This document shows positions 600 to 40,837 of a stretch of DNA of 40,837 bases, piece after piece; the first letter of the stretch is position 1; every line of letters starts with the position of its first letter. A program made the position numbers and the translations under genes. The stretch is from a virus: positions 1 through 40,837 of the IMG/VR virus record IMGVR_UViG_3300008448_000215; one strand, written 5' to 3'. Under the pieces are notes generated by a model, which made no database searches, was not told the DNA's origin, and was given only the letters and a program-made list of their open reading frames with translations.

Positions 600-3500
600 T
601 TATTCAGAATCACTATTCTCATCCTTGATCTTATTCAAATATGAGTCTATGCTTTTCATCATTTTTCTTGTTTGGATATCAAATTTTCTATTTTCAACAA
701 TTAATTTATTTTCAGTTAAAGGGGCACCAGCTTCAGCTTCTGCTCCGCCTGCTGCTGGTTCAGTTCCACCTGCTTCCGGTGCTGCTTCAGCTCCTCCTAA
801 TTCAGGGGTTGCTTCTGGTGTTGCTTCTGCACCACCTCCAAGACCACCTAATACGCTAGAACCTCCAAAACCTCCACTGGACTCTTCTCCCCCTGATGAT
901 TCAGATCCACCTTCAGGTGTTGAACCACCATCACCAGCATCAAAATCTGGTTTTCTAAATTTTTCATCCAAATCTTTGAATATACCAGTATCCATATATT
1001 CATCATTTGCTCTCTCAATCTCAGAAAACATTTTCTTTTCAACTTTCTTTTGTCTAAGAATTTGTTTGATCTCTGACTTTGAAAAACCTAGAATATATTC
1101 CATTGCCCAAGAATAAGAAACAGGAGCAGTGGCATCACTTGAGAATAATTCTTTGAAAACTTCCATTCTTGCTTTCCAAGTTTCGAGTTTTAATAACTCT
1201 AGCTGTGTTGATGGATTTGTCAAAGTCAAAGTAAAATTATCTAAGTCATCTTCAAATCCTAAAAAGTATAAATGTACATTAGCTATTCTTCTTAATTCAA
1301 GAACTATCTGTTCTTGAATTCTGTTTATAGTTCTAGCAAATCTCAAATCAACTTGAGAAAGAGTTGAACCTCCCGGCATAGATTCAGCATAGTTCAAATA
1401 TGTTTTTGGAACTTTGATTGCAGCAAATAATTTGTTTTGTAAATATTCTATATCGGCTATGGCATCTAAATTAGAATTTTGTGTAAAAATGCCTACGGTT
1501 AAAGCAAAATTGTGAAAATTATGATATTGTTCAGGGCCATCAATTGTGATAGTTCCTGTATCTTGTTTATCGGATAAAAATTCCACTGAAACAATTTTAT
1601 GGTTGTAGCAATAAGCACTATTTTTGAATTCTCTCCAATTTTTGTATCCAAAATGTTTTACTAATTTATCTAAATTATTATGTGTGATTCCTTTGCTTTT
1701 TAAAAATTGTTTATTATTTGAATTTAACTCATTAAAAATTTTATAAAATTCATTGTTTGAATCATTTATAATTGGTAAAATATCCTGAGTTTTATTAAAA
1801 CCATTTTTTATCAAATCAGATAAAATAGAGATCATTCTTTCATCATATTTAATCCTTTGTGGACCAATAACACTTTCTACATAATCTTTATTTTCCCATA
1901 ATTTTTTTGAGTTTTGACTGTATCGAATTTTATTTTCTAACTTGTTTTTAGTTATTTTTGCTTTATTAGAAGTTCTTTTAATTATTTCATCTTTTTTTGG
2001 ATTACTTTTAAAAGTAGAAGCTGATTTTTTTCTTGATTTTAAACTGTTATCTATCGCTGTCTTTATTTTTTTATCAAGCTCTTCAGGGCTAAGGTTTTCA
2101 AAATATTTTACAAGTCCCTTTTTTCTTTCTTTTTTCCATGATTCAGTTATTTCATTTCCAAAAAATTTATACATTTCATCAATTTTATCTTGGTGATAAT
2201 AAAAATGATCTTTCGGATTCATAAAACATAAATTTTCGGGTGAATTGTTATATCTATTGAAGTCTTTGTGATGAATTGTGTTTTTTTCACTATCAAAATA
2301 TTCATTTAGATATGAAAATATTTCATGTTCATTTAAATTTTTAAAATAATTAGCTACTAATCTATGTGTATATATCCATTCATTTGAATTATGATCAAAC
2401 ACCATTTCATAAGTGTTTCTTTTTCTTTTTTTACCAGCTCCTTTAATTTTTTGAAATTTTTTATTGAATGACCACATAGATTCACCTATTTGCAAATCCT
2501 TTGCTTGTTTAATTCCATTAAATTTAGTTGGAAATTTGTGATCAGGTGTTGTGGTAATTGTTTCACCATTATCTAATGTTATTTTTACTACATCAGTATT
2601 TTTTCTAGTTAATCCAGCCCAAGTTATTTTTCCGGGAACTATTTCTCCTGTTTCTGGATTAATTGAATATGACCAAAGTTGTTTTCCATTTTCAAATTCA
2701 GAAATTATATCTTTTAGTTCTAGGCTTCTTCCATCTAATAATTCAATTTTTGTATCTAAAGCAAGACATGCTCCGGGTAAAGTTTCAATTTTAGAACTCT
2801 TATCCCCTCTTATTGGCAAGAAATAATCCTCTTCGTAAGTTATTGGATTGTATTTTAAATTTACTTGACCACTATTCGGATCAACAACAGGAGATTTTTT
2901 AACATTCTTTTTTACCTGCTCAATTAATTGATAAACATCATTTGGATCTGTGTTCCCAACTTCAATATAAAATATTCTCCTCTCAGGTGCTCTGGATAAA
3001 CGATAAACCAACATAGCGTCTTCTGCTAACTGTAATTGTTTCCAAAGTTTTCTTGCAGGATCTAACAAACTTCTACCATAAGGCAATCTTGAAGCATCAA
3101 ATAATAAACAAAAGTGAGCAACTTGCCATTCCTCAAAAAACATATTGTTAATATCCCATTTGTATCTTGTCGATTTTGGATTTCCATCATAACCAACTTC
3201 TTTATGAATTTCACCAACTGGTAAAATCATACAATCGTATATTCCTTGATCCTGATCAATTTCTAATTTCAAGAAACAATCTCCGTATTTACATAATTCT
3301 CTTGTCCAAAAACTTAAATTAAATTCAGCATTTAATGTATTATAAAATAATTCTTGTAAAATTTTCTTTATTCTTAAATTATCAGAATATATTGTTATTA
3401 CATGACCCCTTTCACTTCTAGTGCAAACTTCATCTGAGATTATATCTAAAGCAGCAGCGATTTCAGGAGACAAATCCATGGACCTAAAATCGTTATATGC

Positions 3501-3743
3501 TGTAATTCTGTCTGAATCATAAAACAACGTTCTTGAATATAAATCTTGAGCAATTTTAACAGATTGTATGTCAAGATATTGTTGTTGTTTTTGCTGAATA
3601 AAATTAATATCAGAGGATTGTGTCGGAGGAGTACTGGATAATATATCCTTACTTTGTTCCAAAGACTTCATCGGGTCTTTTCGACCTCTTAAAGCCCTCA
3701 TAACACCATAAAATACACTTTTTGGGTCTAATTCGTTTGCCAT
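600..3743 (-). CDS. portal vertex protein (T4 gp20-like) with in-frame intein
   Basis: The portal forms the dodecameric ring at the head vertex through which DNA is packaged and the neck attaches. The N-extein (residues 1-325) carries gp20-type sequence: SPEIAAALDIISDEV, a PARKLWKQLQLAEDAMLVYRL helix, SRAPERRIFYIEVG and ETLPG. The C-extein (757-1047) resumes with SNLDAIADIEYLQNKLF. The product is 1047 residues. Removing residues 326-756, which form an intein, leaves 616 residues, close to T4 gp20 (about 524) plus a long tail. That tail (about residues 930-1010) is a Gly/Ala/Glu/Pro low-complexity segment followed by a charged helix. The gene follows the terminase gene on the same strand. The gp20 assignment is firm. 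Confidence 0.93.
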   Translation of the reverse strand: MANELDPKSVFYGVMRALRGRKDPMKSLEQSKDILSSTPPTQSSDINFIQQKQQQYLDIQSVKIAQDLYSRTLFYDSDRITAYNDFRSMDLSPEIAAALDIISDEVCTRSERGHVITIYSDNLRIKKILQELFYNTLNAEFNLSFWTRELCKYGDCFLKLEIDQDQGIYDCMILPVGEIHKEVGYDGNPKSTRYKWDINNMFFEEWQVAHFCLLFDASRLPYGRSLLDPARKLWKQLQLAEDAMLVYRLSRAPERRIFYIEVGNTDPNDVYQLIEQVKKNVKKSPVVDPNSGQVNLKYNPITYEEDYFLPIRGDKSSKIETLPGACLALDTKIELLDGRSLELKDIISEFENGKQLWSYSINPETGEIVPGKITWAGLTRKNTDVVKITLDNGETITTTPDHKFPTKFNGIKQAKDLQIGESMWSFNKKFQKIKGAGKKRKRNTYEMVFDHNSNEWIYTHRLVANYFKNLNEHEIFSYLNEYFDSEKNTIHHKDFNRYNNSPENLCFMNPKDHFYYHQDKIDEMYKFFGNEITESWKKERKKGLVKYFENLSPEELDKKIKTAIDNSLKSRKKSASTFKSNPKKDEIIKRTSNKAKITKNKLENKIRYSQNSKKLWENKDYVESVIGPQRIKYDERMISILSDLIKNGFNKTQDILPIINDSNNEFYKIFNELNSNNKQFLKSKGITHNNLDKLVKHFGYKNWREFKNSAYCYNHKIVSVEFLSDKQDTGTITIDGPEQYHNFHNFALTVGIFTQNSNLDAIADIEYLQNKLFAAIKVPKTYLNYAESMPGGSTLSQVDLRFARTINRIQEQIVLELRRIANVHLYFLGFEDDLDNFTLTLTNPSTQLELLKLETWKARMEVFKELFSSDATAPVSYSWAMEYILGFSKSEIKQILRQKKVEKKMFSEIERANDEYMDTGIFKDLDEKFRKPDFDAGDGGSTPEGGSESSGGEESSGGFGGSSVLGGLGGGAEATPEATPELGGAEAAPEAGGTEPAAGGAEAEAGAPLTENKLIVENRKFDIQTRKMMKSIDSYLNKIKDENSDSE
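1476..2768 (-). mobile_element. portal intein with HNH homing endonuclease domain
   Basis: The intein spans residues 326-756 (431 aa) of the portal product. It begins with Cys326 (CLALDTKIELLDG, block A). The TTTPDHKFPT segment is the block B Thr-x-x-His. It ends with a block F/G region, HNFALTVGIFTQN, followed by Ser757 as the +1 nucleophile. The central part holds an HNH-type endonuclease: IHHKDFNRYNNSPENL with His491/His492, then DHFYYH, in a Lys/Asn-rich region. Excision joins TLPGA to SNLDAIAD, restoring a conserved portal segment. The penultimate residue is Gln755 instead of the usual His, which may slow Asn cyclisation. Boundaries are inferred from motifs and extein continuity. Confidence 0.9.
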
Positions 3744-3802: not shown

Positions 3803-6544
3803 TTATCCAGACATCAACCAGCTCAAATCATTATCATCGTCTGATTTTCTGTTTTGACTCGTCAAAATAATACCCTCTGTTGGTTTGGAATCAAAATCTA
3901 TTTTATCTCCGATTTCAGTTTTTTGGTTCGAAATCGCACCAATCATAGCTTTGTATAAATCTCTACTGGCAAAATGTTTGAAATATTCAGTATCTCTTAC
4001 AAAAAGTAATACTCCCAAAGCAAAAATTAAATCATCATTAAATCCATCAGCATGTTCTGGTTTATTGCCATTATATATAAAAGTATCAAATTCCTCCAGT
4101 AATCTCACTGAATTTATCTTAATCTTTCCTTCTCTCATATAAGAATTTAAACTGCTTATAATTAAAGGTCTTGTTACCTGAGTTGTTTGAATACCGGGAA
4201 TATCATCATTCTCTTTGATTTTAACTTTTGCTACCGGATTTATAATGTCTTTTATTGATTTTGAATGATAAATTCTGTCTTCTGGATATTTAAGACTATT
4301 TTTTATATTCAAAGTTGTTGCTAAACCAAAACTATTACATTCGATTACCAAATAAGCATTATTATAATCACGTCCAACTTTATCAATTAAGCTTCCAAAT
4401 ACATCTGGTGGAATTTTACCTTGATACTCTGCTACTTGTTCACATGTATCAGCGTCAAAAACTTGTAATGTTGAAAAGTCTTTTGAATCGCCTCTTGCAA
4501 CGTCTCCGCCCACAATGTAGTTTTTTCCATATTCTGGTTTTTTCCAAACCCAAAAATTTGTTTTTGTATTGATAAATCTTTCTTCAGACCTTGTATAATC
4601 ATAATAAAATTCTGGTTTTTCGTTTATAATAGATCTTTTGTATTTTTCAATAATAGCACTTTCAATAACCAATTGTCTTGAACCCTCAAATGACAAATCT
4701 AACTCTTGTGCGATTTTTACCCTATCATACTGTAATCGTTCACATTCTTTTTCATACCATGGACTTGTCCAATATTTTTGACCATAATCATTAATTTTTT
4801 CCTCCATTTCTTTACAATAAACAGGATGTTGAGTCCAATGTATTTCAAATGGTATAAAATCATTTTCACTCTTTTTTGTTCCAACCCAAGTTCTATGATA
4901 TAGGTTCCCCGTGCCTTGTGGAGTGCTTATCATGATACATTTACCTTGTGTTGCAGATAAAGCAAGACCAGCAGCCATCCAAATATCTTCTGCATTCTCT
5001 ATAAACGCAGTCTCATCCAATATCAACATTGTTAATGATTCTCCACGACCTGCATTTTTGGAACTTGCAACTGCTTTTACCCATGATATTTTACCTTCTG
5101 GATTTTTCAATGAAAAGAATTTTTCATTGTCTTTTTCAGATTGTGTATCTGGATCAAATAAAAATTTAGGAAGAAATTGAAAATATTGTTTAACGGTACT
5201 TAAAAAACGAATTGCTCCAGCACCATCGTTTGCAACAATTAATATTCTTTGGTCCATTTTGAACAATAACATCCAAACTACAAAGCCTGCTGTGATTACA
5301 GAAAGTCCTGTATTGTGAACTAAAAGACCATCAATAAAGTAGTTTTCATTTTTAGTTACTGAAATGTCATAACAATTAATTTTTCCAACTCTCTCTATTT
5401 TTCTAACTTTTGATTGATCTTTTACATCATGTTTTCTTGAATTTGAAATTGAAACGTGTTCTGAATTTATTTTTTTATAAATTCCTATATCATTAATAAA
5501 TTTTGATATGCTTTTGGAGTGAGTTATTCTTAATTTAAAAAAAGGATTTTTTTGAAGTTTCATATTTTTAACTTCATAAATATTACATTTAATATCAAAT
5601 TTTTTTAATAAAAATTTTACTTGTTCTAAAAATTCCTTGCTTGGGGAAGCTATTCCTATTTCTAATCTTTTATTTGTTTTTTTCTTTAAAATACTTATCC
5701 AACCATCTCCTGCAAACATTCTATTTAATAAAATAGATAATGAATTCTTATTCCAATAAAAAACTTCTTGAGGTAATATTTTATTTTCTGTTTTCTTTCC
5801 AGCTATTTTTTTATTTTCACACCATTCCATGATTGGACTTTTGGTATTAACCCCATGCTTTTGATGAGGTAAATAATCGAATCCTTTTAGTTTTGGTATT
5901 TTTCTTAAACTTAATTCTGGAAAAATATAATTTATTGATTCTTCAAATTCTTTTAGATAATCAATATTGTTGTTTGTAAATTTTACTTGTTTGATTGTAC
6001 TTCCATCCGTTATGAGATAAGCTAACAATTTTATTTCATTTATATCAGCTTCAATTTCCCCAAATTGAAATTTTTGATCTAAAATTTCATCGTCAATTTC
6101 TAAATCTTTTGCTGATACCCATTTGTTTTTATTTTTTATGAAAAAAGGGTGATTTTCACCAACAACAATATTTCTTGAATCTTTTAATTTTATTTTTACA
6201 GATTCTATTTCTCCGCATTCCCAATGATCATAAACCGTATCTAATTCATATTTATTTTTATTTAAATTGAATGAATATACTATATCTCCTTTGTTTATTT
6301 CACTTATTTTTTTTGGCCCATCTGGTGTACTTATAAAAGTATCTTCTGGTAAACATTGTCTTGATTTTAGAATAATATTATTCTGATATTTTATGTAATT
6401 TTTCAATACATTCTCTTGATACTCAAAACAAGATAATTTATCTACTTTGCTTTTTCTAATATCATAAACATATCCATAGTTATTTAGAAAATAAACTGGA
6501 TCTTTTGCACATTTAATATATTCTTGTATCTCTTGAGGTGTCAT
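3803..6544 (-). CDS. terminase large subunit (T4 gp17-like) with in-frame intein
   Basis: This is the packaging motor ATPase and headful nuclease that docks on the portal. Residues 1-63 and 412-913 are exteins, 565 residues after splicing (T4 gp17 has 610). The spliced P-loop reads KSRQ-TGLS, a deviant Walker A with Lys60 at its start, as in lambda gpA. Walker B is MLILDETAF (Asp510, Glu511), and STPQGTGN fits the coupling motif. The RNase H-fold nuclease shows GGDVARGD (Asp681), YLVIEC (Glu735) and FNDDL (Asp837/Asp838). The first 20 residues resemble other gp17 N-termini of this lineage. The gene is followed 59 bases later by the portal. Assignment is firm; the intein is listed separately. 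Confidence 0.94.
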   Translation of the reverse strand: MTPQEIQEYIKCAKDPVYFLNNYGYVYDIRKSKVDKLSCFEYQENVLKNYIKYQNNIILKSRQCLPEDTFISTPDGPKKISEINKGDIVYSFNLNKNKYELDTVYDHWECGEIESVKIKLKDSRNIVVGENHPFFIKNKNKWVSAKDLEIDDEILDQKFQFGEIEADINEIKLLAYLITDGSTIKQVKFTNNNIDYLKEFEESINYIFPELSLRKIPKLKGFDYLPHQKHGVNTKSPIMEWCENKKIAGKKTENKILPQEVFYWNKNSLSILLNRMFAGDGWISILKKKTNKRLEIGIASPSKEFLEQVKFLLKKFDIKCNIYEVKNMKLQKNPFFKLRITHSKSISKFINDIGIYKKINSEHVSISNSRKHDVKDQSKVRKIERVGKINCYDISVTKNENYFIDGLLVHNTGLSVITAGFVVWMLLFKMDQRILIVANDGAGAIRFLSTVKQYFQFLPKFLFDPDTQSEKDNEKFFSLKNPEGKISWVKAVASSKNAGRGESLTMLILDETAFIENAEDIWMAAGLALSATQGKCIMISTPQGTGNLYHRTWVGTKKSENDFIPFEIHWTQHPVYCKEMEEKINDYGQKYWTSPWYEKECERLQYDRVKIAQELDLSFEGSRQLVIESAIIEKYKRSIINEKPEFYYDYTRSEERFINTKTNFWVWKKPEYGKNYIVGGDVARGDSKDFSTLQVFDADTCEQVAEYQGKIPPDVFGSLIDKVGRDYNNAYLVIECNSFGLATTLNIKNSLKYPEDRIYHSKSIKDIINPVAKVKIKENDDIPGIQTTQVTRPLIISSLNSYMREGKIKINSVRLLEEFDTFIYNGNKPEHADGFNDDLIFALGVLLFVRDTEYFKHFASRDLYKAMIGAISNQKTEIGDKIDFDSKPTEGIILTSQNRKSDDDNDLSWLMSG
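5312..6355 (-). mobile_element. terminase intein with LAGLIDADG (DOD) endonuclease
   Basis: The intein spans residues 64-411 (348 aa) of the terminase product. It starts at Cys64 (CLPEDTFISTPDGPKKI, block A), has a block B segment VVGENHPFF, and ends FIDGLLVHN with Thr412 as the +1 residue. Two DOD motifs are visible: LLAYLITDGS (Asp180) and LNRMFAGDGW (Asp280), spaced about 100 residues apart as in two-motif LAGLIDADG enzymes. The insertion point lies inside the deviant Walker A loop, between SRQ and TGLS, so unspliced terminase cannot form its nucleotide site. All splicing residues expected in a class 1 intein are present. Confidence 0.93.
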
Positions 6545-33238: not shown

Positions 33239-33285
33239 GAAACGAGTATTTCGTTTAAATACAAAAAACTCCAAAAAACACCATC

Positions 33286-34134
33286 ATGTCTAAGAAATTG
33301 GATAAAAATGTTGATTCTGTTCCTGACACCATCTTTCAAGTTAAAGAAATGGGCAAGAGAATCAAATTTATATTAAAACAGGAAAATCTTTATCAGAACC
33401 GTGAAGATGTAAATGGTTATTTATGTGGAAAAATATCTGAGGACAATCCTGTTTTCAGTATTAAATTGAATGACCCATCTAAAATAAAATTTATTATAGA
33501 TTTACTTACTAAAAAATACAATTACATAACTGAGGTTGGTGGTGAAAATGATGAATTAATAATTAAAAACAAATCTATTTTAGATCCCTCTGACATTGAA
33601 ATAGATGGTGAGATACAAAAAGAGATAAAAGAAAGTTTCGATCATTTTGATGAAGAGCAAGATGATGATCCAAAATTAAATTTGTTGAGGTCTCGATATA
33701 AGAGAATAATTGGAGCTATACGCAGTAATTTTCCTATGAGTTACGGCTTCAATCAAAACAGTCCTAATGGATACAAGGCCAGTAGGATTAAAAATGCTGA
33801 TCAGAAATCATTTATGATGCAATTTCCCACATCAGAATTTACTGATTCGGTTAGTCATTTTCTATACAAGAATGGTCACAAGGCAATTAAAACAGATTCC
33901 AACACTTTAGAAATATTTGTTGTTGATGTGCCGGAGGAAAGTCCAATATTGAAAAATTTAGTAGATCAAGATTTCTCTCCTGAACAACTTGTTAAAATTT
34001 GGGATTTGTTAAACACAAATGGATTGGTATTGGTCGATGTAAATAATCAATTTTCTACCTTGGATCTTTTTAATGGTAAGGGTCTTCCACAAATCAATAA
34101 AGAAGAATTTATAAAAATAATTAAAAACCAATAA
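33286..34134 (+). CDS. hypothetical protein, 282 aa
   Basis: I do not recognise the protein. Residues about 1-130 hold an alpha/beta region with a central acidic segment (FDHFDEEQDDDPKL, about 118-131). Residues 135-215 include a basic, helix-forming part (LLRSRYKRIIGAIRSNF), and the C-terminus is an alpha/beta stretch ending KEEFIKIIKNQ. It is charged and soluble, with no membrane segment. It is followed six bases later by the HNH/AP2-like gene. A promoter-like box and a leader hairpin precede it, so it may start a new transcript. Confidence 0.6.
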   Translation: MSKKLDKNVDSVPDTIFQVKEMGKRIKFILKQENLYQNREDVNGYLCGKISEDNPVFSIKLNDPSKIKFIIDLLTKKYNYITEVGGENDELIIKNKSILDPSDIEIDGEIQKEIKESFDHFDEEQDDDPKLNLLRSRYKRIIGAIRSNFPMSYGFNQNSPNGYKASRIKNADQKSFMMQFPTSEFTDSVSHFLYKNGHKAIKTDSNTLEIFVVDVPEESPILKNLVDQDFSPEQLVKIWDLLNTNGLVLVDVNNQFSTLDLFNGKGLPQINKEEFIKIIKNQ

Positions 34135-34139
34135 GACAC

Positions 34140-34634
34140 ATGAAAGAATTACCATTATCAAATGGGCAGGTAGCTTTAGTAGATGAGAATGACTATTACA
34201 AGTTGTTAAAATACAAATGGGTGGCAACATCATTTTATACTGGAAGGTATTATGCCAGAAATCAAAAGTATGGACTTTTGCATAAGTTTATTATGAAAGA
34301 TGATCCTAACGAAGTTTTCAACATAACATTTAAAAATGGCAATACCTTAGATTGTCGTAGAGAAAACATGGTTAAAACAAACGTTAAAATAGTGTCTCCT
34401 GAAATGCAGATTATCAAAAAAGACGCACAGCTTGGACTTTTTAATCCTGAAAAAACATCTGATGATAAGGTAAAAAACATCATTTCAGATAATTCTAGTG
34501 GTGTCAAAGAAAAAATTGTTTTTGAAGCTAAGTACATCAGTCCTGAGGGTCGTGTTTTTAATTTTGGAACATATGAAACCAAAGAAGAGGCTCAAGAGAA
34601 CTATGACAGGATGATAAAAATGATCCCTAGGTAA
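34140..34634 (+). CDS. degenerate HNH / AP2-like DNA-binding protein, 164 aa
   Basis: The N-terminal ~85 residues follow the phage HNH-endonuclease pattern: LPLSNGQVALVDENDYYKLLKYKW, YYARN, LLHKFIM and LDCRRENM. The catalytic segment that normally reads (V/I)DHinGn is NITFKNGN, so the key His is missing and cleavage activity is unlikely. Residues about 125-160 (YISPEGRVFNFGTYETKEEA) resemble an AP2-type DNA-binding domain, which often accompanies HNH domains in homing endonucleases. I infer a former homing endonuclease kept as a DNA-binding protein or a decaying one. A strong terminator follows. Confidence 0.65.
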   Translation: MKELPLSNGQVALVDENDYYKLLKYKWVATSFYTGRYYARNQKYGLLHKFIMKDDPNEVFNITFKNGNTLDCRRENMVKTNVKIVSPEMQIIKKDAQLGLFNPEKTSDDKVKNIISDNSSGVKEKIVFEAKYISPEGRVFNFGTYETKEEAQENYDRMIKMIPR

Positions 34635-34657
34635 TAAAACATTATTTTTAAAATAAT

Positions 34658-34688
34658 AAAGGTGAACTTTGATAGTTCACCTTTTTTT
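34658..34688. terminator. bidirectional rho-independent terminator
   Basis: AAAGGTGAACT (34658-34668) and AGTTCACCTTT (34674-34684) form an 11-bp perfect stem with a five-base loop, followed on the plus strand by a T run to 34688. On the minus strand it is followed by TTTATTATTTT. It lies between convergent genes (ends 34634 and 34687), so it can serve both. Confidence 0.9.
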
Positions 34689-35115
34689 ATTTCATTTTAT
34701 TTATAATCTTTTTAAGGTCATCGCCTCTTGTTTCAAACATCAATTTACATGCTGGTAACAAATCTTCCGGTAATTCATCTAAGGAAAACCACCCATAATC
34801 AGTATTTTCTTCATTAAGGATGGGTACAAACTTGTTATCAAAAAACCCTATGTAAGTGTAAAATTTAAGGTATTTATTTTCGTTTATAAAGAATGGGAGT
34901 TTGCTGAGTTGATAAGAGGTGTCTGGTTGAACTTCTTCCTTAAATTCTCTTATCGCTGCCACTCTAGTATTTTCATCTTCTGGATCTTTTTTACCTCCTA
35001 CAACTGCCCATTTATTGGGGTTGGGTACTAAATTGCTTCTTTTAATAAGTAAAATTTCACCTGTATTCTTATCTACGGCTAATATTCCGGCAGCTATTAA
35101 CTTTTTGTTGTTCAT
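34687..35115 (-). CDS. Nudix hydrolase
   Basis: This 142-residue protein is the only minus-strand gene in the right half. It has a Nudix box (GGKKDPEDENTRVAAIREF then KEEV) with the REx2EE metal-binding glutamates. One extra residue lies between the glycines and the first conserved Glu compared with the GX5EX7REUXEE consensus. The N-terminus (AAGILAVDKNTGEILLIKRS) is the usual first strand pair. Nudix enzymes cleave nucleoside diphosphates linked to another group. In phages they may clean nucleotide pools or process NAD-type or capped RNA. The substrate is not visible. It overlaps the T-run of the downstream terminator. Confidence 0.85.
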   Translation of the reverse strand: MNNKKLIAAGILAVDKNTGEILLIKRSNLVPNPNKWAVVGGKKDPEDENTRVAAIREFKEEVQPDTSYQLSKLPFFINENKYLKFYTYIGFFDNKFVPILNEENTDYGWFSLDELPEDLLPACKLMFETRGDDLKKIINKMK

Positions 35116-35159
35116 AACAATAAATATATCGTATTTATGTAAATTTTATAATTTTTAAA

Positions 35160-35176
35160 TATGTTTGTCAAAAATA
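35160..35176. promoter_or_regulatory. back-to-back TAnnTTTG-like boxes in a divergent gap
   Basis: TATGTTTG on the plus strand (35160-35167) and TATTTTTG on the minus strand (35169-35176) fit the Bacteroidota -7 consensus and face the two divergent genes starting at 35184 and 35115. Matching -33 TTG elements at usual spacing are not seen. In such AT-rich DNA this may be chance. Confidence 0.25.
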
Positions 35177-35183
35177 TTTATTA

Positions 35184-35606
35184 ATGGAAAAAACTAAAGA
35201 GATTTTAATCAAATTATATTTGAATTTTTCAGAAAATGAATTTTCGAATTTTGGTGATGATTTATTTAATCAATCAGATTTAAGATCCGCTATTTGTGAA
35301 GTTCTGGATAATCAGGAAATTTTTATTATTGATTTAGCTGTTTACATAAATCAAATAAAGAAGAAAATTGATTATGAAGAGGATGATAAAGCGTATATGA
35401 AAAAATTACGTTCACTATGGGATAGTTTTTCTGTAAATGATTTATATGATTTAAAAGATAAGTGTGATAATAATTCCATAAAAAATATCATACAAAAAAT
35501 GATAATTCTTAAAAATGCTTTCAAAAAATTTAATCAAGAAGTTGTAGATATAGATTATGAAGATTACTTTTATGAACAAAATAAATTAATCAATTTAATT
35601 CTATGA
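35184..35606 (+). CDS. hypothetical acidic helical protein, 140 aa
   Basis: I do not recognise the protein. It is mostly predicted helix, rich in Asp/Glu/Lys, for example DEDDKAYMKKLRSLWDSF-like stretches and KDKCDNNSIKNIIQKM. It has no membrane segment or metal-binding cluster. It overlaps the next gene by four bases (ATGA), which suggests translational coupling. It is the first gene of a plus-strand set that continues with dUTPase. Confidence 0.65.
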   Translation: MEKTKEILIKLYLNFSENEFSNFGDDLFNQSDLRSAICEVLDNQEIFIIDLAVYINQIKKKIDYEEDDKAYMKKLRSLWDSFSVNDLYDLKDKCDNNSIKNIIQKMIILKNAFKKFNQEVVDIDYEDYFYEQNKLINLIL

Positions 35607-35899
35607 ACGAAAAAACTTATCCGAAAATTTATAGAGATAAGCTAAATAGAATTAATTACATACTACAAAACGAGTTTCAAAAAATTATCTATACATTTTA
35701 TGGAGAAACAAAAAACATAAAAATTAAATATGTTTATTTCAGGAAAAATGTATATTTTGATGCTTTCTCAAAATCTGGACACTTGATATTTTCTACATTC
35801 GAAGATAATTACAGTTCCACAGTTGAAAAAAAATATGATGGAACAATAAGTTTTATCATTCATCCAGAAAAAATTAAAATCATAAACCAAATAAAATAA
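35603..35899 (+). CDS. hypothetical protein, 98 aa
   Basis: I do not recognise the protein. It is a small basic alpha/beta protein: a helical N-terminus (KIYRDKLNRINYILQNEFQK) followed by beta-rich segments (IKIKYVYFRKNVYFDAFSK, and HLIFSTFEDNY). It is coupled to the upstream gene by an ATGA overlap and is followed one base later by dUTPase, so it is probably co-expressed with nucleotide-metabolism functions. Confidence 0.6.
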   Translation: MNEKTYPKIYRDKLNRINYILQNEFQKIIYTFYGETKNIKIKYVYFRKNVYFDAFSKSGHLIFSTFEDNYSSTVEKKYDGTISFIIHPEKIKIINQIK

Positions 35900-35900
35900 T

Positions 35901-36326
35901 ATGTTAATCAAAATTAAAAAATTAGACCCCAACGCAATTATTCCAAGTTATGCTAAAATGGGTGATGCAGGAATGGATTTGACTGCATTATCTTTAACTG
36001 TAGATCCCAATGGATTCTATACTGAGTATGGAACTGGATTAGCGATTGAAATTCCTGATGGTTATGCTGGATTTATTTTTCCTCGAAGCTCTGCAAGTAA
36101 AACTTCTCAAATTCAAGCTAATTGTGTTGGTGTAATAGATTCGGGTTATCGTGGTGAGATTAAAGTAAGATTGAAAGAACTTGGTAATCCTCGGAAATTA
36201 TATCAAATAGGTGATAGAATTGCTCAAATAATTATTATGCCTGTTCCAAATGTAATTTTTGAAGAGGTTGATGAATTGAATACTACTGATAGAGGAGAAG
36301 GTGGTTTTGGTAGCACAGGCAACTAA
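35901..36326 (+). CDS. dut: dUTPase (trimeric dUTP pyrophosphatase)
   Basis: The enzyme converts dUTP to dUMP and pyrophosphate, keeping uracil out of phage DNA and supplying dUMP for dTMP synthesis. All five trimeric dUTPase motifs are present: I GDAGMDL (21-27), II PRSS (61-64), III GVIDSGYRGEI (catalytic Asp80, Tyr83), IV GDRIAQIII and V RGEGGFGSTG at the C-terminus. The length of 141 is normal. It starts one base after the preceding gene's stop and lies 44 bases before the ClpC gene. Confidence 0.95.
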   Translation: MLIKIKKLDPNAIIPSYAKMGDAGMDLTALSLTVDPNGFYTEYGTGLAIEIPDGYAGFIFPRSSASKTSQIQANCVGVIDSGYRGEIKVRLKELGNPRKLYQIGDRIAQIIIMPVPNVIFEEVDELNTTDRGEGGFGSTGN

Positions 36327-36370
36327 ACTACAAATTTCAAAATATTAATTTAAATTTAAAAATAAAAAAT

Positions 36371-37711
36371 ATGGCTATAGAAGATTTGGATGACTCTAAA
36401 TTATTATTTCCTTCTGATGGGAATAACAATAAAAAAAATAGATCAAACACTCCGCTGTTAGATAATTTTGGAAAAGATATTACAAAATTAGCTGCTTCTG
36501 GAAAAATTGAACCTGCAGTAGGAAGAGAAAATGAAGTAGATAGAATTATTCAAATTTTAAGTAGAAAGAAAAAGAATAATCCTGTATTAGTTGGTCAACC
36601 CGGTGTAGGTAAAACTGCGATTGTAGAATCTCTTGCAAATAAAATAGTTGATAAAAAGGTTAGTGTTGTTCTTCATGATAAAAGAATAGTAAGCTTAGAT
36701 ATTTCACTCATAGTTGCCGGAACAAAATACAGAGGTCAGTTTGAGGAAAGGATGAAAGCAATTATGGATGAAATTGAAAATAATCCTAACATTATTTTAT
36801 TTATTGATGAATTACACACCATAATTGGTGCTGGTAATTCTGCTGGATCTTTAGATGTTTCTAATATTATAAAACCTGCTCTTGCAAGAGGTACAATGCA
36901 AATTATAGGTGCTACAACAATTGAAGAATATAAAAAATCGATTGAAAAAGATGGGGCTATGGAAAGAAGGTTTCAAAAAGTAATGATTGAGGAACCCTCT
37001 ATTGAAGAAACTAAAACTATTCTTAATAACATTAAAGGAATTTATGAGGATTTTCATAATGTTACTTTTGATGCCGAAGCAATAACATCTGCAGTAGATT
37101 ATTCTGTTAGATATATTACCAATAGATTTTTACCAGATAAAGCGATCGATATTATTGATGAAGCAGGTGCTAGATTACATTTGGATAATCTCCACTTACC
37201 AGTAGAATTAGAAGTTCTTGAAAATAAATTGAATGATCTTAAGAACGAAAAAAACGAAGTAATAAAATCTCAAAAATATGAGCAAGCTGCTAAGATCAGA
37301 GACAAGGAGAGAGATTTAATAAAAGAAATAGAGATTTTTAAATACAACTGGCAAAATCAACAAAAAACCAAAAGGGTTCCTGTCACAGAACATGATATTG
37401 CGAGAGTCGTTTCAAAAATGATTGGAATTCCGGTAACTCAAATCACAGAAAGTGAAGGTGTTCGTCTAATGAAAATGGGTGAAGAGTTGAAAAAAAGGGT
37501 TATTGGACAGGATGAAGCAATTGAAAAAATATCCGAATCTATTCAGCGATCAAGATCTGGATTGAGTAATCCAAAAAAACCTATTGCAAGTTTTTTGTTT
37601 CTTGGTTCAACTGGTATTGGTAAGTGTTTAGGAAAAAATACAGAAATAACAATAATGGCTGATGATATTTTAATAAATAAAATATTAGAAAACAGAAAAA
37701 ACAAAAATTAA
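36371..37711 (+). CDS. ClpC-type AAA+ unfoldase, N-part ending in split-intein N-half
   Basis: Residues 1-418 are the N-extein and 419-446 the intein N-half. There is no Clp N-terminal repeat domain. D1 has Walker A GQPGVGKT (75-82), Walker B ILFIDELHTI, the GATTIEEY sensor region and an arginine finger MERRFQKV. A short middle domain (SQKYEQAAKIRDKERDL) is of the ClpC/UVR-like kind. D2 begins VIGQDEAIEKI and stops inside its Walker A, GSTGIGK, at Lys418. The frame then runs into CLGKNTEITI and ends after 28 residues. The rest of D2 is in the gene at 38865. Trans-splicing would give a 698-residue ClpC-like ATPase that unfolds proteins, possibly for the host ClpP. Confidence 0.93.
   Translation: MAIEDLDDSKLLFPSDGNNNKKNRSNTPLLDNFGKDITKLAASGKIEPAVGRENEVDRIIQILSRKKKNNPVLVGQPGVGKTAIVESLANKIVDKKVSVVLHDKRIVSLDISLIVAGTKYRGQFEERMKAIMDEIENNPNIILFIDELHTIIGAGNSAGSLDVSNIIKPALARGTMQIIGATTIEEYKKSIEKDGAMERRFQKVMIEEPSIEETKTILNNIKGIYEDFHNVTFDAEAITSAVDYSVRYITNRFLPDKAIDIIDEAGARLHLDNLHLPVELEVLENKLNDLKNEKNEVIKSQKYEQAAKIRDKERDLIKEIEIFKYNWQNQQKTKRVPVTEHDIARVVSKMIGIPVTQITESEGVRLMKMGEELKKRVIGQDEAIEKISESIQRSRSGLSNPKKPIASFLFLGSTGIGKCLGKNTEITIMADDILINKILENRKNKN
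37625..37711 (+). mobile_element. split intein, N-half (28 aa)
   Basis: This segment starts with Cys (TGT at 37625-37627, residue 419) in a block A sequence, CLGKNTEITI, directly after Gly-Lys of the D2 Walker A, and ends at a TAA stop after 28 residues. Ordinary split inteins have N-halves of roughly 100 residues. This break right after block A matches the atypical class known from AceL-TerL, with an N-half of about 25 residues. Its partner is the first 139 residues of the gene at 38865. Confidence 0.88.
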
Positions 37712-37717
37712 CACTAT

Positions 37718-37762
37718 TTAGGTTTAACAGGGATAGGAAAATTAGTATCCCTGTATTCCTAA
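37718..37762 (+). promoter_or_regulatory. strong two-part hairpin abutting the endonuclease start codon
   Basis: CAGGGATA (37728-37735) pairs with TATCCCTG (37746-37753) around a ten-base loop, and TTAGG (37718-37722) pairs with CCTAA (37758-37762) outside it. It fills the gap between the intein N-half stop (37711) and the endonuclease ATG (37763) and ends at the base before the ATG. There is no T-run, so translational control or RNA processing is more likely than termination. T4 homing endonuclease genes are known to be held back by such hairpins. Confidence 0.7.
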
Positions 37763-38860
37763 ATGATAATTAAAAGTAGAAAAAAAGTATTGTTCAATAT
37801 CGAATCAATAGAAGAGTTTGAAAAATATTTAAGTAAAGAGATTAAGAATTTCAAAAATTTAAATAATTTAGAAAAAGGACAAAGAGAAAATCTTATAGTT
37901 GCTCTTTCAGAAAAAAATGAAATAGGTATAAAAAAATTCAGAAATATATTTGTAAAAAATTATATTAATTGTAAAACACTTTTTAATAAAAAATATTGGT
38001 TAGAAAGGGGTTATTCTCACGAAGAGGCAGTTAGTGAAATTTTTAAAATTCAAAAAATTAACAACATAAAAGCGGTTGAAGTAATGCAAGATTTAAAAAA
38101 ATATGATCTTAATAATTACAAAAAAAAAAGAAATATCTATGTTGAGTATTGGATAGAAAAAGGATTCACTATTGAAGAAGCAAAAATAAAATTAAAAGAA
38201 AGACAATCAACTTTTTCACTTGAAAAACTTAAATTAAAATATGGCGAGAAAGAAGGTTTAATCAAATTCAATCAACGTAATGATAAGTGGCAAAATAGTC
38301 TTTATAGTAAAATGACTTTTGAACAAAAAAATGAATTTGAAAAAAGCAAGTGTATAACCAAAGATAAAATGGTTTCTAAGTACGGTGAAAAATTGGCTAC
38401 AGAAAAATGGGAAAATTATATTAAGACTCACTCAAATATGTGGAATGCGTCTGGTATATCAAAAAAATACATTGATGAAATTCTATCTATTATTGGACCT
38501 GATGAAATTGAAACTGAAACCATATTTTACGGTTCAGATATAAAAAGTGAATTTTACCTATATGACAAAGAAACGATGTCTTTGTATTGGTATGATCTCA
38601 CTTTTTTTGATAGAAAAAAAATAATAGAATTTGACGGTATTCACGTACATCCGGATCCAAATGCTCTTGAAAATGAACGTTTAAATTGGAAACAAGCGTA
38701 CACAAATAAAAGTTATGAAGAAGCTTTGTCAAAAGATATAGCTAAAGAACAATTTGCAATAAAAAATGGTTTTGAAGTACTTAGAATTAGATTACCAAAA
38801 CATTCAACAAATACAATAAAAGAGTCTATTGATAAATGCATAAAATTTATAAAAAAATAA
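37763..38860 (+). CDS. Vsr/EDxHD-like homing endonuclease inside a fractured gene
   Basis: This 365-residue protein is encoded between the two halves of the split-intein ClpC gene. The C-terminal nuclease reads YDLTFFDRKKIIEFDGIHVHP (Asp278, Glu289, Asp291, His294, His296), followed by a W...A..K..FAIKNGFEVLRIR strand. This matches the 'IIEF.G..WH..P ... NGY.V..I' pattern of Vsr-like enzymes of the EDxHD homing family. The N-terminal ~230 residues contain putative DNA-contacting repeats common in phage endonucleases: (Y)WLERGYSHEEAV and YWIEKGFTIEEAK, and KLKYGEKEGLIKFNQRNDKW and SKYGEKLATEKW. It probably cuts intein-free clpC alleles. The target is inferred. Confidence 0.85.
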   Translation: MIIKSRKKVLFNIESIEEFEKYLSKEIKNFKNLNNLEKGQRENLIVALSEKNEIGIKKFRNIFVKNYINCKTLFNKKYWLERGYSHEEAVSEIFKIQKINNIKAVEVMQDLKKYDLNNYKKKRNIYVEYWIEKGFTIEEAKIKLKERQSTFSLEKLKLKYGEKEGLIKFNQRNDKWQNSLYSKMTFEQKNEFEKSKCITKDKMVSKYGEKLATEKWENYIKTHSNMWNASGISKKYIDEILSIIGPDEIETETIFYGSDIKSEFYLYDKETMSLYWYDLTFFDRKKIIEFDGIHVHPDPNALENERLNWKQAYTNKSYEEALSKDIAKEQFAIKNGFEVLRIRLPKHSTNTIKESIDKCIKFIKK

Positions 38861-38864
38861 TAAA

Positions 38865-39281
38865 ATGATTGAATTAAAAGTAAAAATAGAAGAGATATTC
38901 GAAGCAGTTTCTCAATTAGAAGCTCAAGAATTTATTCCAGAAAAAGAGATTTTTCAAAAATCTAAAATAATGGTCAAAAACGAATTTGGTAAATGGATAA
39001 ATGTTTTAGGTATGATCACAAAAAAAGATCAAGTTCGTGAAATTAAATTTTCTGATGGAAGCTTCTGTGTAGTTGCAGATAATCACAAAATACGTAAAGA
39101 AAAGAATGAATGTTGTTTAGTTTCTAATTTGTTGATCGGAGATTTTGTTGAAAAGGCAGATGAAAGTAAAATTTCTGTAATTAGCAACAATTTAACAGGT
39201 GAAATTGAAACTGTTTTTGATATGCACGTTGATTCTGAAACTCATTTATATCAAACAGAAAATGGAATTGTACATCACAAC
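38865..39281 (+). mobile_element. split intein, C-half (139 aa)
   Basis: This segment begins with its own ATG, carries a block B-like stretch (SFCVVADNHKIR, with the His at about residue 76), a block F region ETVFDMHVDSETHLYQ and ends GIVHHN, with Asn139 as the last intein residue and Thr140 as the +1 nucleophile. Together with the 28-residue N-half it makes a 167-residue mini-intein with no endonuclease domain inside. Confidence 0.88.
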
Positions 39282-40124
39282 ACAGAATTATCTAAAGCAC
39301 TATCTGAATATTTATTTAATGATGAAGATTCGCTAATTAGAATTGACATGAGTGAATATATGGAACCACATAGTGTATCAAAATTAATAGGTGCTCCTCC
39401 GGGATATGTTGGTCATGGTGATGGCGGTCAATTGACTGAAAAAGTTAGAAATAAACCTTATAGTATTGTTTTATTTGATGAAATAGAAAAGGGTCATAAA
39501 GATGTGATAAATATTTTATTACAGCTTTTGGATGAAGGAAAATTGACTGATGGAGACGGTGTTGAAATTAATTTTAAAAATACTGTGGTTATTATGACAT
39601 CAAATATTGGAACGCAAGAAATTACTGAAAACAAACCAGTAGGATTCAATTCAGATCTTTTGAAAAATAATCTTGAAAACCAAAGGATAATTGAAAAGGC
39701 ATTAAAAAAACATTTCAGACCGGAGTTGCTTAATAGAATTGATGATGTTGTTATATTCCAAAAATTGACCCAAGATAATGTATTAGATATCGTAAAAATT
39801 CATTTAAGAAACTTTGAAAAAAATGTTATTTCTCAAGGAATAAATGTTGAATTTACAGATAAAATGATTGATTTTATTGGTGAAGAAGGTTATTCTGACG
39901 AATATGGAGCAAGGCCTATTCTTAGAGTTATAACAAAATTTGTTGAAACTCCTTTGTCTAAAGAATTACTTCTCAAAAAAATTATAAAAGGTGATGATAT
40001 TATCATTGATTTTGACAAAGAAAAAGGAACTTTAATTTCTAAAAGAGAAGAAAAAAAAGAAACCAAAGTTAAAAATGTTGTCAAAAAAAAGGTTACGAGA
40101 AAAAAGAAAGAGGATAATATTTAA
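38865..40124 (+). CDS. ClpC-type AAA+ unfoldase, C-part headed by split-intein C-half
   Basis: Residues 1-139 are the intein C-half and 140-419 the C-extein. The extein starts TELSKALSEYLF, which continues the Walker A of D2 exactly (GSTGIGK + TELSKAL). It goes on with MSEYMEPHSVSKLIGAPPGYVGHG, Walker B IVLFDEIEKGHKD, VIMTSNIG (sensor 1), the arginine finger in RPELLNRIDDVV and GYSDEYGARP (sensor 2), and ends in a Lys-rich tail of about 30 residues. It starts four bases after the endonuclease stop. Without splicing to the N-part it has no complete D2 P-loop. The tail is unlike that of host ClpC proteins. Confidence 0.93.
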   Translation: MIELKVKIEEIFEAVSQLEAQEFIPEKEIFQKSKIMVKNEFGKWINVLGMITKKDQVREIKFSDGSFCVVADNHKIRKEKNECCLVSNLLIGDFVEKADESKISVISNNLTGEIETVFDMHVDSETHLYQTENGIVHHNTELSKALSEYLFNDEDSLIRIDMSEYMEPHSVSKLIGAPPGYVGHGDGGQLTEKVRNKPYSIVLFDEIEKGHKDVINILLQLLDEGKLTDGDGVEINFKNTVVIMTSNIGTQEITENKPVGFNSDLLKNNLENQRIIEKALKKHFRPELLNRIDDVVIFQKLTQDNVLDIVKIHLRNFEKNVISQGINVEFTDKMIDFIGEEGYSDEYGARPILRVITKFVETPLSKELLLKKIIKGDDIIIDFDKEKGTLISKREEKKETKVKNVVKKKVTRKKKEDNI

Positions 40125-40164
40125 TATTTTATTTCTCGGTTCATTCTATTATTTTTATTAAATA

Positions 40165-40837
40165 ATGAATGATGATTTTTACACATTATTGGGTTTAACT
40201 AAGGATGCCAGTCAGGATGATATAAAAAAAGCTTATAGATCTTTAAGTAAAAAATATCATCCTGATTTAAACCCTAACAATAAAGAAGCCGAAGAAAAAT
40301 TTAAAAAAATTAACGAGGCTTATTCTGTTTTAAGCGAACCAGAAAAAAGAAAACAATACGATAATAGAGGTTCTGGTTTTGGGAATTTTTCAAATTTCAA
40401 CCAAGGTTTTTCAAACTTCGATTTTTTCTCTGATTTCTTTAATTTTAGAAATAATAATCAGAGACCTCAACAACAAAACCAAAAAGGTTCTGACTTAAGA
40501 ATCAAATTGTCTTTTTCTTTAGAGGAAGTTGTACATGGTTCTAGAAAAACAATTAAATATAATAGAAATGTTTGTTGTTCATCTTGCAAAGGAAATGGTT
40601 CTAAAGAAGGTATTTCTTTGAAAACATGTAATAATTGTAACGGACAAGGAAGTGTTATTAATGTTGTACAAACTCCTTTTGGTAGAATTCAAACTTCGAA
40701 CCATTGCAATATTTGTAATGGTGCAGGAAAAATAATAAATGAAATTTGTAATAGTTGTGGAGCTAGAGGAATAAAAGAAAACTTTGAAAATATTGAAATA
40801 AACGTACCTCCCGGAATTACTGAAGGATTTGTTTATA
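40165..40837 (+). CDS. dnaJ: DnaJ (Hsp40) co-chaperone, 3' end outside window
   Basis: The gene is cut by the window end after about 224 codons. The J-domain opens NDDFYTLLGLTKDASQDDIKKA and contains HPD at residues 32-34. A Gly/Phe-rich linker (GFGNFSNFNQGF) follows. Then come the four zinc-binding repeats of type I DnaJ: CSSCKGNG, CNNCNGQG, CNICNGAG and a slightly reduced CNSCGARG, and the start of the C-terminal substrate domain (INVPPGITEGF). DnaJ stimulates DnaK and delivers clients. It starts 40 bases after the ClpC C-part and may be part of the same chaperone-type cluster. No partner DnaK is visible here. Confidence 0.93.
   Translation, partial: MNDDFYTLLGLTKDASQDDIKKAYRSLSKKYHPDLNPNNKEAEEKFKKINEAYSVLSEPEKRKQYDNRGSGFGNFSNFNQGFSNFDFFSDFFNFRNNNQRPQQQNQKGSDLRIKLSFSLEEVVHGSRKTIKYNRNVCCSSCKGNGSKEGISLKTCNNCNGQGSVINVVQTPFGRIQTSNHCNICNGAGKIINEICNSCGARGIKENFENIEINVPPGITEGFVY

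Follow-up and report, generated by a model that had tools for sequence, protein, structure and literature searches.

A phage ClpC gene appears to be broken within its second Walker A motif by an atypically split intein and a nuclease-like gene

The window analyzed here, a 40,837-bp virus record (IMGVR_UViG_3300008448_000215), encodes a AAA+ unfoldase of the ClpC type in two pieces with a separate gene between them. From sequence and predicted structure, we conclude with a probability of about 0.9 that the second P-loop (Walker A motif) of this phage ClpC holds a naturally and atypically split intein of the class 1 type; the evidence is best read as such an intein with an endonuclease-like gene between its halves. 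An earlier note on this DNA had proposed such an intein; its residues, its predicted fold, and relatives at the same site support that proposal.

Organization of the interrupted ClpC locus

Three open reading frames (ORFs) lie on the same strand, flanked by genes for a dUTPase and for DnaJ. ORF1 (36371-37711, +) encodes 446 residues and stops 28 codons past GSTGIGK, its tail being CLGKNTEITIMADDILINKILENRKNKN. ORF3 (38865-40124, +) encodes 419 residues, opening with 139 residues that run to ...NGIVHHN and continuing with TELSKAL and the remainder of ClpC. ORF coordinates and translations thus agree with what the earlier note had read here: the early stop, a separate gene, a third gene restoring ClpC, an N-half starting with Cys, and a 139-residue C-half ending in HHN-Thr. 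The features are as follows.

36371..37624 (+): ClpC N-extein, 418 residues; first AAA+ domain, AAA lid, UVR motif, and start of the second AAA+ domain, to GSTGIGK
37625..37708 (+): intein N-half, 28 residues from Cys1; stop codon at 37709-37711
37715..37765 (+): hairpin between the N-half and the nuclease-like gene; RNA energy of -20.1 kcal/mol, z of -5.3; ORF2 ATG in the stem
37718..37741 (+): diverged Walker A copy, LGLTGIGK versus LGSTGIGK, past the N-half stop and in frame
37763..38860 (+): ORF2, probable free-standing homing endonuclease, 365 residues; C-terminal part weakly EDxHD/Vsr-like
38865..39281 (+): intein C-half, 139 residues; ADNH (block B-like) and C-terminal HHN
39282..40124 (+): ClpC C-extein, 280 residues from Thr(+1); remainder of the second AAA+ domain and ClpB D2-small domain

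Joined, the exteins (418 and 280 residues) give a protein of 698 residues, the length that the earlier note had predicted. This protein has the make-up of a ClpC-type AAA+ protein, with PF17871, PF00004, PF02151 (UVR), PF07724, and PF10431 all over the cut-off; Clp_N was absent among the 25 listed of 32 family matches. The first Walker A motif of the N-extein, GQPGVGKT, is unbroken.

The match of ORF1 to the intact phage ClpC of LR745206.1 ends at codon 424517-424519 (query residue 419, the intein Cys1), and the match of the C-half gene from a sister phage (L022) begins, with its +1 Thr, on that same codon. Because the two matches meet on one codon, the junction is exact, with no residue lost or duplicated, and comparison with an intein-free homolog bears out the junction placed here by the earlier note. 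Across 80 related viral loci, this site reads GK/T in 69 (the slash marking the border), GK/C in 9, of which 3 are the window phage, and is unread in 2.

Evidence that the insert is an intein

The insert carries the residues of a class 1 intein: Cys1, a penultimate His and terminal Asn (HHN), and Thr(+1). In an alignment of 22 rows (21 C-halves and the contiguous intein of contig record L062), the final two columns, His and Asn, are invariant, as is the His of block B. An AlphaFold model of the window C-half (predicted local distance difference test [pLDDT] score of 86) was compared with the PDB using Foldseek; all 37 of the 37 matches at E ≤ 0.001 were inteins or intein-like (BIL) domains, including RadA (E of 3.1e-6), gp41-1, and the atypically split Cat and VidaL. 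The C-half is therefore predicted to have a Hint/intein fold. The L062 intein, a contiguous element of 173 residues at the same site (model pLDDT of 81), also matches RadA, VidaL, and Cat by fold.

Profile searches point the same way. With a profile of 4 window-type C-halves, the top match was CatC, a consensus atypically split intein (E of 0.0011), and the 22-row profile matched gp41-1 (8.9e-10), CatC (6.8e-8), and VidaL (2.3e-6). As a single sequence, the window C-half matched CatC weakly (E of 0.031), and the window match to a phage terminase large subunit (TerL) was also weak (E of 2e-3).

A widespread family of split inteins at the same site

We scanned viral contigs for the pattern [LF]GxTGxGK followed by Cys and found 57 stretches; by context, 45 were ClpB/C, and the 12 that were not were discarded. 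N-halves of 26 to 38 residues followed by a stop are present in 43 of the 45 (3 of the 43 being the window phage); the remaining two are L100, a contiguous case on the L062 contig, and L130, whose frame continues for 171 residues until its locus ends. In 26 of the 45 records the locus also contains a C-half with HN/T that restores ClpC, and 7 more were found elsewhere in the record among the 16 records searched outside the locus. Split ClpB/C inteins are therefore a widespread phage set rather than an isolated case. The earlier note had held ClpC to be a new or rarely seen host; we found no report of split inteins in ClpB/C in the literature searched, in which subscription journals were thinly covered, so that an earlier mention is possible.

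The family falls into two groups. Group A has N-halves of 28 to 38 residues and C-halves ending in RYYTNGILSHN or a near variant. Group B, the window subtype, has N-halves of 26 to 28 residues and C-halves ending in LYQTxNGxxxHN, and comprises the window phage, L091, L103, and L108/L136. Alignment with the contiguous L062 intein and TerL inteins, together with two structural models, fits a split after strand 2 and its helix in group A. Group B appears to be split earlier, between strands 1 and 2, judging from the alignment and two predicted structures, although the automatic alignment leaves strand 2 of group B unaligned. Group A C-halves are under purifying selection, with a median ratio of nonsynonymous to synonymous substitution (dN/dS) of 0.095 (61 non-independent pairs, last 27 codons); this test covered group A, to which the window subtype does not belong.

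In an extein tree built by a quick method (68 of 104 rows after near-copy removal), explaining the intein label takes at least 15 changes; the starred branches by themselves force 7. This patchy distribution suits a mobile element and could also include losses. The intein tree joins the window with L091, L103, and L108 (100/100, long branches), while the extein tree sets them apart. Because an approximately unbiased (AU) test on 30 of the 68 extein tree rows did not reject one extein clade (p of 0.242), we make no claim that the window-type intein has moved horizontally between distant lineages of ClpC.

A scan of bacterial genomes gave at least 120 stretches, and among the matches listed only L267 looked like a Clp with an intein at the site. 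In this contig, from a cellular genome, the intein at the Clp Walker A is large and contiguous and by eye resembles the LAGLIDADG type.

Contiguous, split, three-piece, and genome-separated forms

The element occurs in a range of states. Contiguous forms include L062, in which no endonuclease domain was found in the 173-residue intein, and L076/L078, with 338 residues and a Hom_end (LAGLIDADG-type) domain (domain scan on L076). Split forms without a nuclease gene are L135, whose ORFs overlap by 4 nucleotides (nt), L096 (gap of 78 nt), and L091 (gap of 113 nt); the L091 gap holds a 39-residue reverse-strand scrap that by eye resembles the end of the L103 nuclease. L095, L105, L125, and L131 retain a 91-codon nuclease remnant between the halves, and in these four and L091 the nuclease has decayed and the split been retained. 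Most others in which a C-half was seen have a longer nuclease-like gene between the halves, with gaps of about 1.1 to 2.0 kb; L103, L108, and L136 carry this long frame on the reverse strand.

In L022, L133, and L137, both P-loops are split and ClpC is in three pieces, with all four half-inteins in three ORFs. L094 and L130 also have a split first Walker A and a second N-half at the site in the second AAA+ domain (D2); the last C-half was not seen. Separately, L300, L302, and L303 carry a split intein at the first Walker A of ClpB/C.

Genome-separated halves are found in G002, a 464,605-bp contig. The sole N-half found is on the plus strand at 171,065, and the sole C-half found is on the minus strand at 120,909-122,102, about 49 kb away. 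With one half on each strand, no joining in cis can occur, and RNA cis-splicing and ribosome bypass are excluded in this contig. On the N-half side, G002 is collinear with L093 over 6.3 kb (76% identity) and with L110 over 2.7 kb (74%), and no C-half was found in either of those records; the separation is therefore unlikely to be a chimera of a single assembly. By far the likeliest route to a whole ClpC in G002 would be protein trans-splicing.

The nuclease-like ORF2

ORF2 is probably a homing endonuclease, given its position, conserved residues, and weak matches. Residues E263, D278, E289, G292, and H296 are invariant across 8 homologs. Among the nuclease-like genes of relatives, those of L022 and L134 match DUF559/MTES_1575 below the cut-off, and that of L103 matches phrog_559, "HNH endonuclease." ORF2 itself had no Pfam family over the cut-off.

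A diverged Walker A copy and a hairpin at the nuclease start

Directly past the N-half stop, the same frame continues through HYLGLTGIGKLVSLYS to the next stop, and this stretch holds a Walker A copy. Seven of its 8 residues match LGSTGIGK, and 7 of its 8 codons differ, 6 of those 7 synonymously; on these grounds we rejected the idea that the copy arose recently from the Walker A of the window itself. When the 51 nt were shuffled 20,000 times by mononucleotide, 7 matching residues never occurred, and elsewhere in the window, besides the Walker A and this copy, at most 5 of 8 residues match. At the DNA level the direct copy is not significant and does not rank first among local matches, nor is an inverted copy in the window significant (107 of 300 shuffles). 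An exact 24-mer common to other phages was likewise rejected, being found only in the three contigs of the window phage. Group A elements have, at the N-half stop, an inverted copy of the junction between Walker A and intein start; at 10 of 32 distinct loci its score was reached in at most 2 of 300 shuffles, usually with the copy in the same place, and the other 22 loci, including the window, were above that level.

The copy is part of the hairpin that takes the ORF2 ATG into its stem. Start-codon occlusion by a hairpin occurs in T4-type nucleases, and a candidate reading, by analogy, is that the hairpin occludes the ORF2 start codon. A role as an intrinsic terminator was rejected since no T-run follows the hairpin. 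The Walker A copy may be a scar of cassette insertion. Alternatively, it is a candidate control site for the nuclease, in analogy to I-TevI, which binds a site similar to its target (PMC3943268).

Proposed mechanism

ORF1 and ORF3 would be translated separately, the 28-residue N-half docking on the 139-residue C-half and completing the intein fold. Cys1 would then start the N-to-S shift, Thr(+1) would accept the N-extein, and the terminal Asn would cyclize. Splicing would join GSTGIGK to TELSKAL and thereby rebuild the Walker A motif and, presumably, an active ClpC. ORF2 is probably the homing endonuclease whose past or present cleavage of intein-free ClpC at the Walker A codons lets repair copy in the whole cassette, and the hairpin over its start codon may repress it. 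Splicing, the activity and target of the nuclease, the restored ClpC activity, and repression by the hairpin are all what we infer from sequence.

On a broader view, four propositions taken jointly stand at even odds: that a single mobile family of atypically split inteins with an EDxHD-like nuclease targets the P-loop codons of phage TerL and of the first (D1) and second AAA+ domains of ClpC; that this family has repeatedly made phage ClpC a product of two or three genes; that in one lineage the halves drifted about 49 kb apart to opposite strands, making trans-splicing obligatory; and that the degenerate target-side copy at or near the nuclease start is a built-in control element of the cassette.

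Weighing the evidence and alternative explanations

Several results weigh against a split intein with a homing endonuclease. In block B, Ala replaces the usual Thr (ADNH) in all 22 aligned rows. Scores for Pfam Intein_splicing lie far below the cut-off of 35.8 bits, at 13.1 bits (C-half) and 11.8 bits (joined halves), and an NCBIfam search of the window intein gave nothing. The ORF2 match is weak and to a family without known function (phrog_22677), and a PDB profile search with the nuclease gave no solved nuclease. In 12 of the 45 ClpB/C records there is no separate D2 C-half; of these, L100 is contiguous, L147 is the window phage with its C-half in L003, and among the rest some records end early and some were searched at the locus only. 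The window subtype is rare, with 8 records from about 4 to 5 phages, 3 of them the window phage, and group A N-halves are less constrained than the C-halves (median dN/dS of 0.48; 232 pairs, ungapped). Finally, RNA trans-splicing could in principle operate in G002.

The interruption might instead be removed as a group I or group II intron or skipped by the ribosome, with the intein likeness incidental; introns bearing homing endonucleases are common in phage genes, and a strong hairpin follows the first stop. However, an Rfam search of 36000-40837 gave no hit at E ≤ 0.1, and both flanks of the interruption end in intein-like sequence. The reverse-strand nuclease-like frames of L103, L108, and L136, the 4-nt overlap in L135, and the opposite-strand halves of G002 also argue against removal at the RNA level, which we consider highly improbable. 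A sequencing or assembly error, the first of which the earlier note had named as a way in which it could be wrong, is very unlikely because three other IMG/VR contigs share 7,556 nt (window 33282-40837) at 100% identity with no gap. The same kind of split also occurs in 40 records of other phages; we found nothing in favor of such an error and regard its chance as negligible.

A dead, fragmented ClpC gene would explain why three ORFs stand where most related phages keep the site unbroken and why the middle gene has a weak family match only. Against such decay, both extein pieces are in frame up to the exact junction, the layout recurs across many contigs, and purifying selection acts on the C-halves of the group A relatives; we find it improbable. 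We give equally little credence to a two-chain ClpC whose halves associate through the intein fragments without splicing. Association does precede splicing, and the Thr-to-Ala change in block B would suit an inactive element, but Cys1, His-Asn, and Thr(+1) are all in place, and an unspliced intein within a P-loop should block ATP binding. Every C-half found beside a ClpB/C extein or gathered into the C-half collection also ends in HN/T, with the qualification that part of the C-half collection itself required HN followed by T, S, or C. A protein-splicing intein thus stays our preferred reading.

Neighboring genes in the window

A DnaJ gene (40165-40836, +) lies directly 3′ of ClpC, which suggests a phage chaperone cluster. 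Upstream, a small gene at 34140-34634 (+) has a weak HNH_3 match below the cut-off and is possibly another free-standing homing endonuclease. The terminase large subunit (3806-6544, −) carries a contiguous intein with a LAGLIDADG domain at its Walker A, with borders read by eye as SRQ/CLPEDT...VHN/TGLS, and the T4-type portal protein (603-3743, −) carries a further intein-like insert with an HNH match. The window thus holds three inteins, probably with three different kinds of nuclease. For two other proteins of the window, no match was found among the phage records.

Implications

ClpB/C, a AAA+ unfoldase, becomes a further host of natural split inteins, and the family offers dozens of short-N-half pairs not studied before. 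Such pairs are useful for protein labeling because a half of 26 to 38 residues can be synthesized. The series from contiguous through overlapping, interrupted, and three-piece to genome-separated forms makes the evolution of split inteins directly testable, and relatives with two split inteins per protein are natural tests of orthogonal splicing.

Comparison with known systems

Kin of this family are found in phage terminases. The L062 intein gave 332 matches at E ≤ 0.01 among phage records, 149 of them spanning at least 80% of its length; of the 40 listed, most are annotated as terminase large subunit, and phages such as VAP7 (annotated terminase) and BX-1 match at 36% over the full length. 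We read the intein region itself for Vibrio phage BX-1 and for Klebsiella phage May. A viral scan with the G002 C-half returned G002 and two contigs (L305/L306) in which TerL, identified by eye, opens with a homologous C-half, 44% identical to that of G002 ClpC over residues 17-132. In L306, a 242-kb phage contig (3843-6692), TerL ends 47 codons past RQCGK with the N-half CLKYNT..., followed by a nuclease-like gene with a similar C-terminal end and then the C-half. Homologous C-halves in TerL and ClpC indicate one split intein family, probably with one nuclease family, in P-loops. Common descent with TerL split inteins was found in group A; the window itself gave only the weak matches to TerL and CatC.

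Like the ClpC intein, the TerL inteins of L306 and Vibrio phage BX-1 occupy a P-loop in a phage ATPase, and the AceL and GOS inteins are also at the TerL P-loop site. As described in PMC11766414, AceL-TerL, GOS-TerL, and Cat combine a short N-half (25 to 37 residues) with a long C-half; the window intein, with halves of 28 and 139 residues, has the same short IntN (about 25 to 37 residues) and long IntC. The AceL and GOS inteins differ in host, TerL rather than ClpC, and in a +1 Cys (PMC11766414) where the window has Thr. The assignment to the AceL-TerL-type class in the earlier note therefore fits in the proportions of the halves, while AceL-TerL is split after strand 2 and its helix and the window subtype seems to be split between strands 1 and 2, as the alignment and two predicted structures suggest.

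Fractured genes, in which split inteins occur with EDxHD/Vsr endonucleases, were reportedly described by Dassa et al. in 2009. Known examples are split at the usual endonuclease insertion site, mainly in DNA-metabolism genes. The window shares their layout, a split intein breaking the gene with a free-standing endonuclease-like ORF, here of putative activity, between the halves; the host differs, being a AAA+ unfoldase rather than a DNA-metabolism protein. VidaL (PDB 6vgv), which is atypically split and has another host gene than ClpC, is among the closest folds to the window and L062 inteins.

The earlier note had linked very short N-halves mainly to the AceL-TerL class, but PolB16 OarG, with an N-half of 15 residues, has also been published (PMC10189870). 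Like the window intein, PolB16 OarG is naturally split very early; it differs in its Ser1/Ser+1 residues and DNA polymerase host, and the 22-row profile matches it weakly (E of 0.001).

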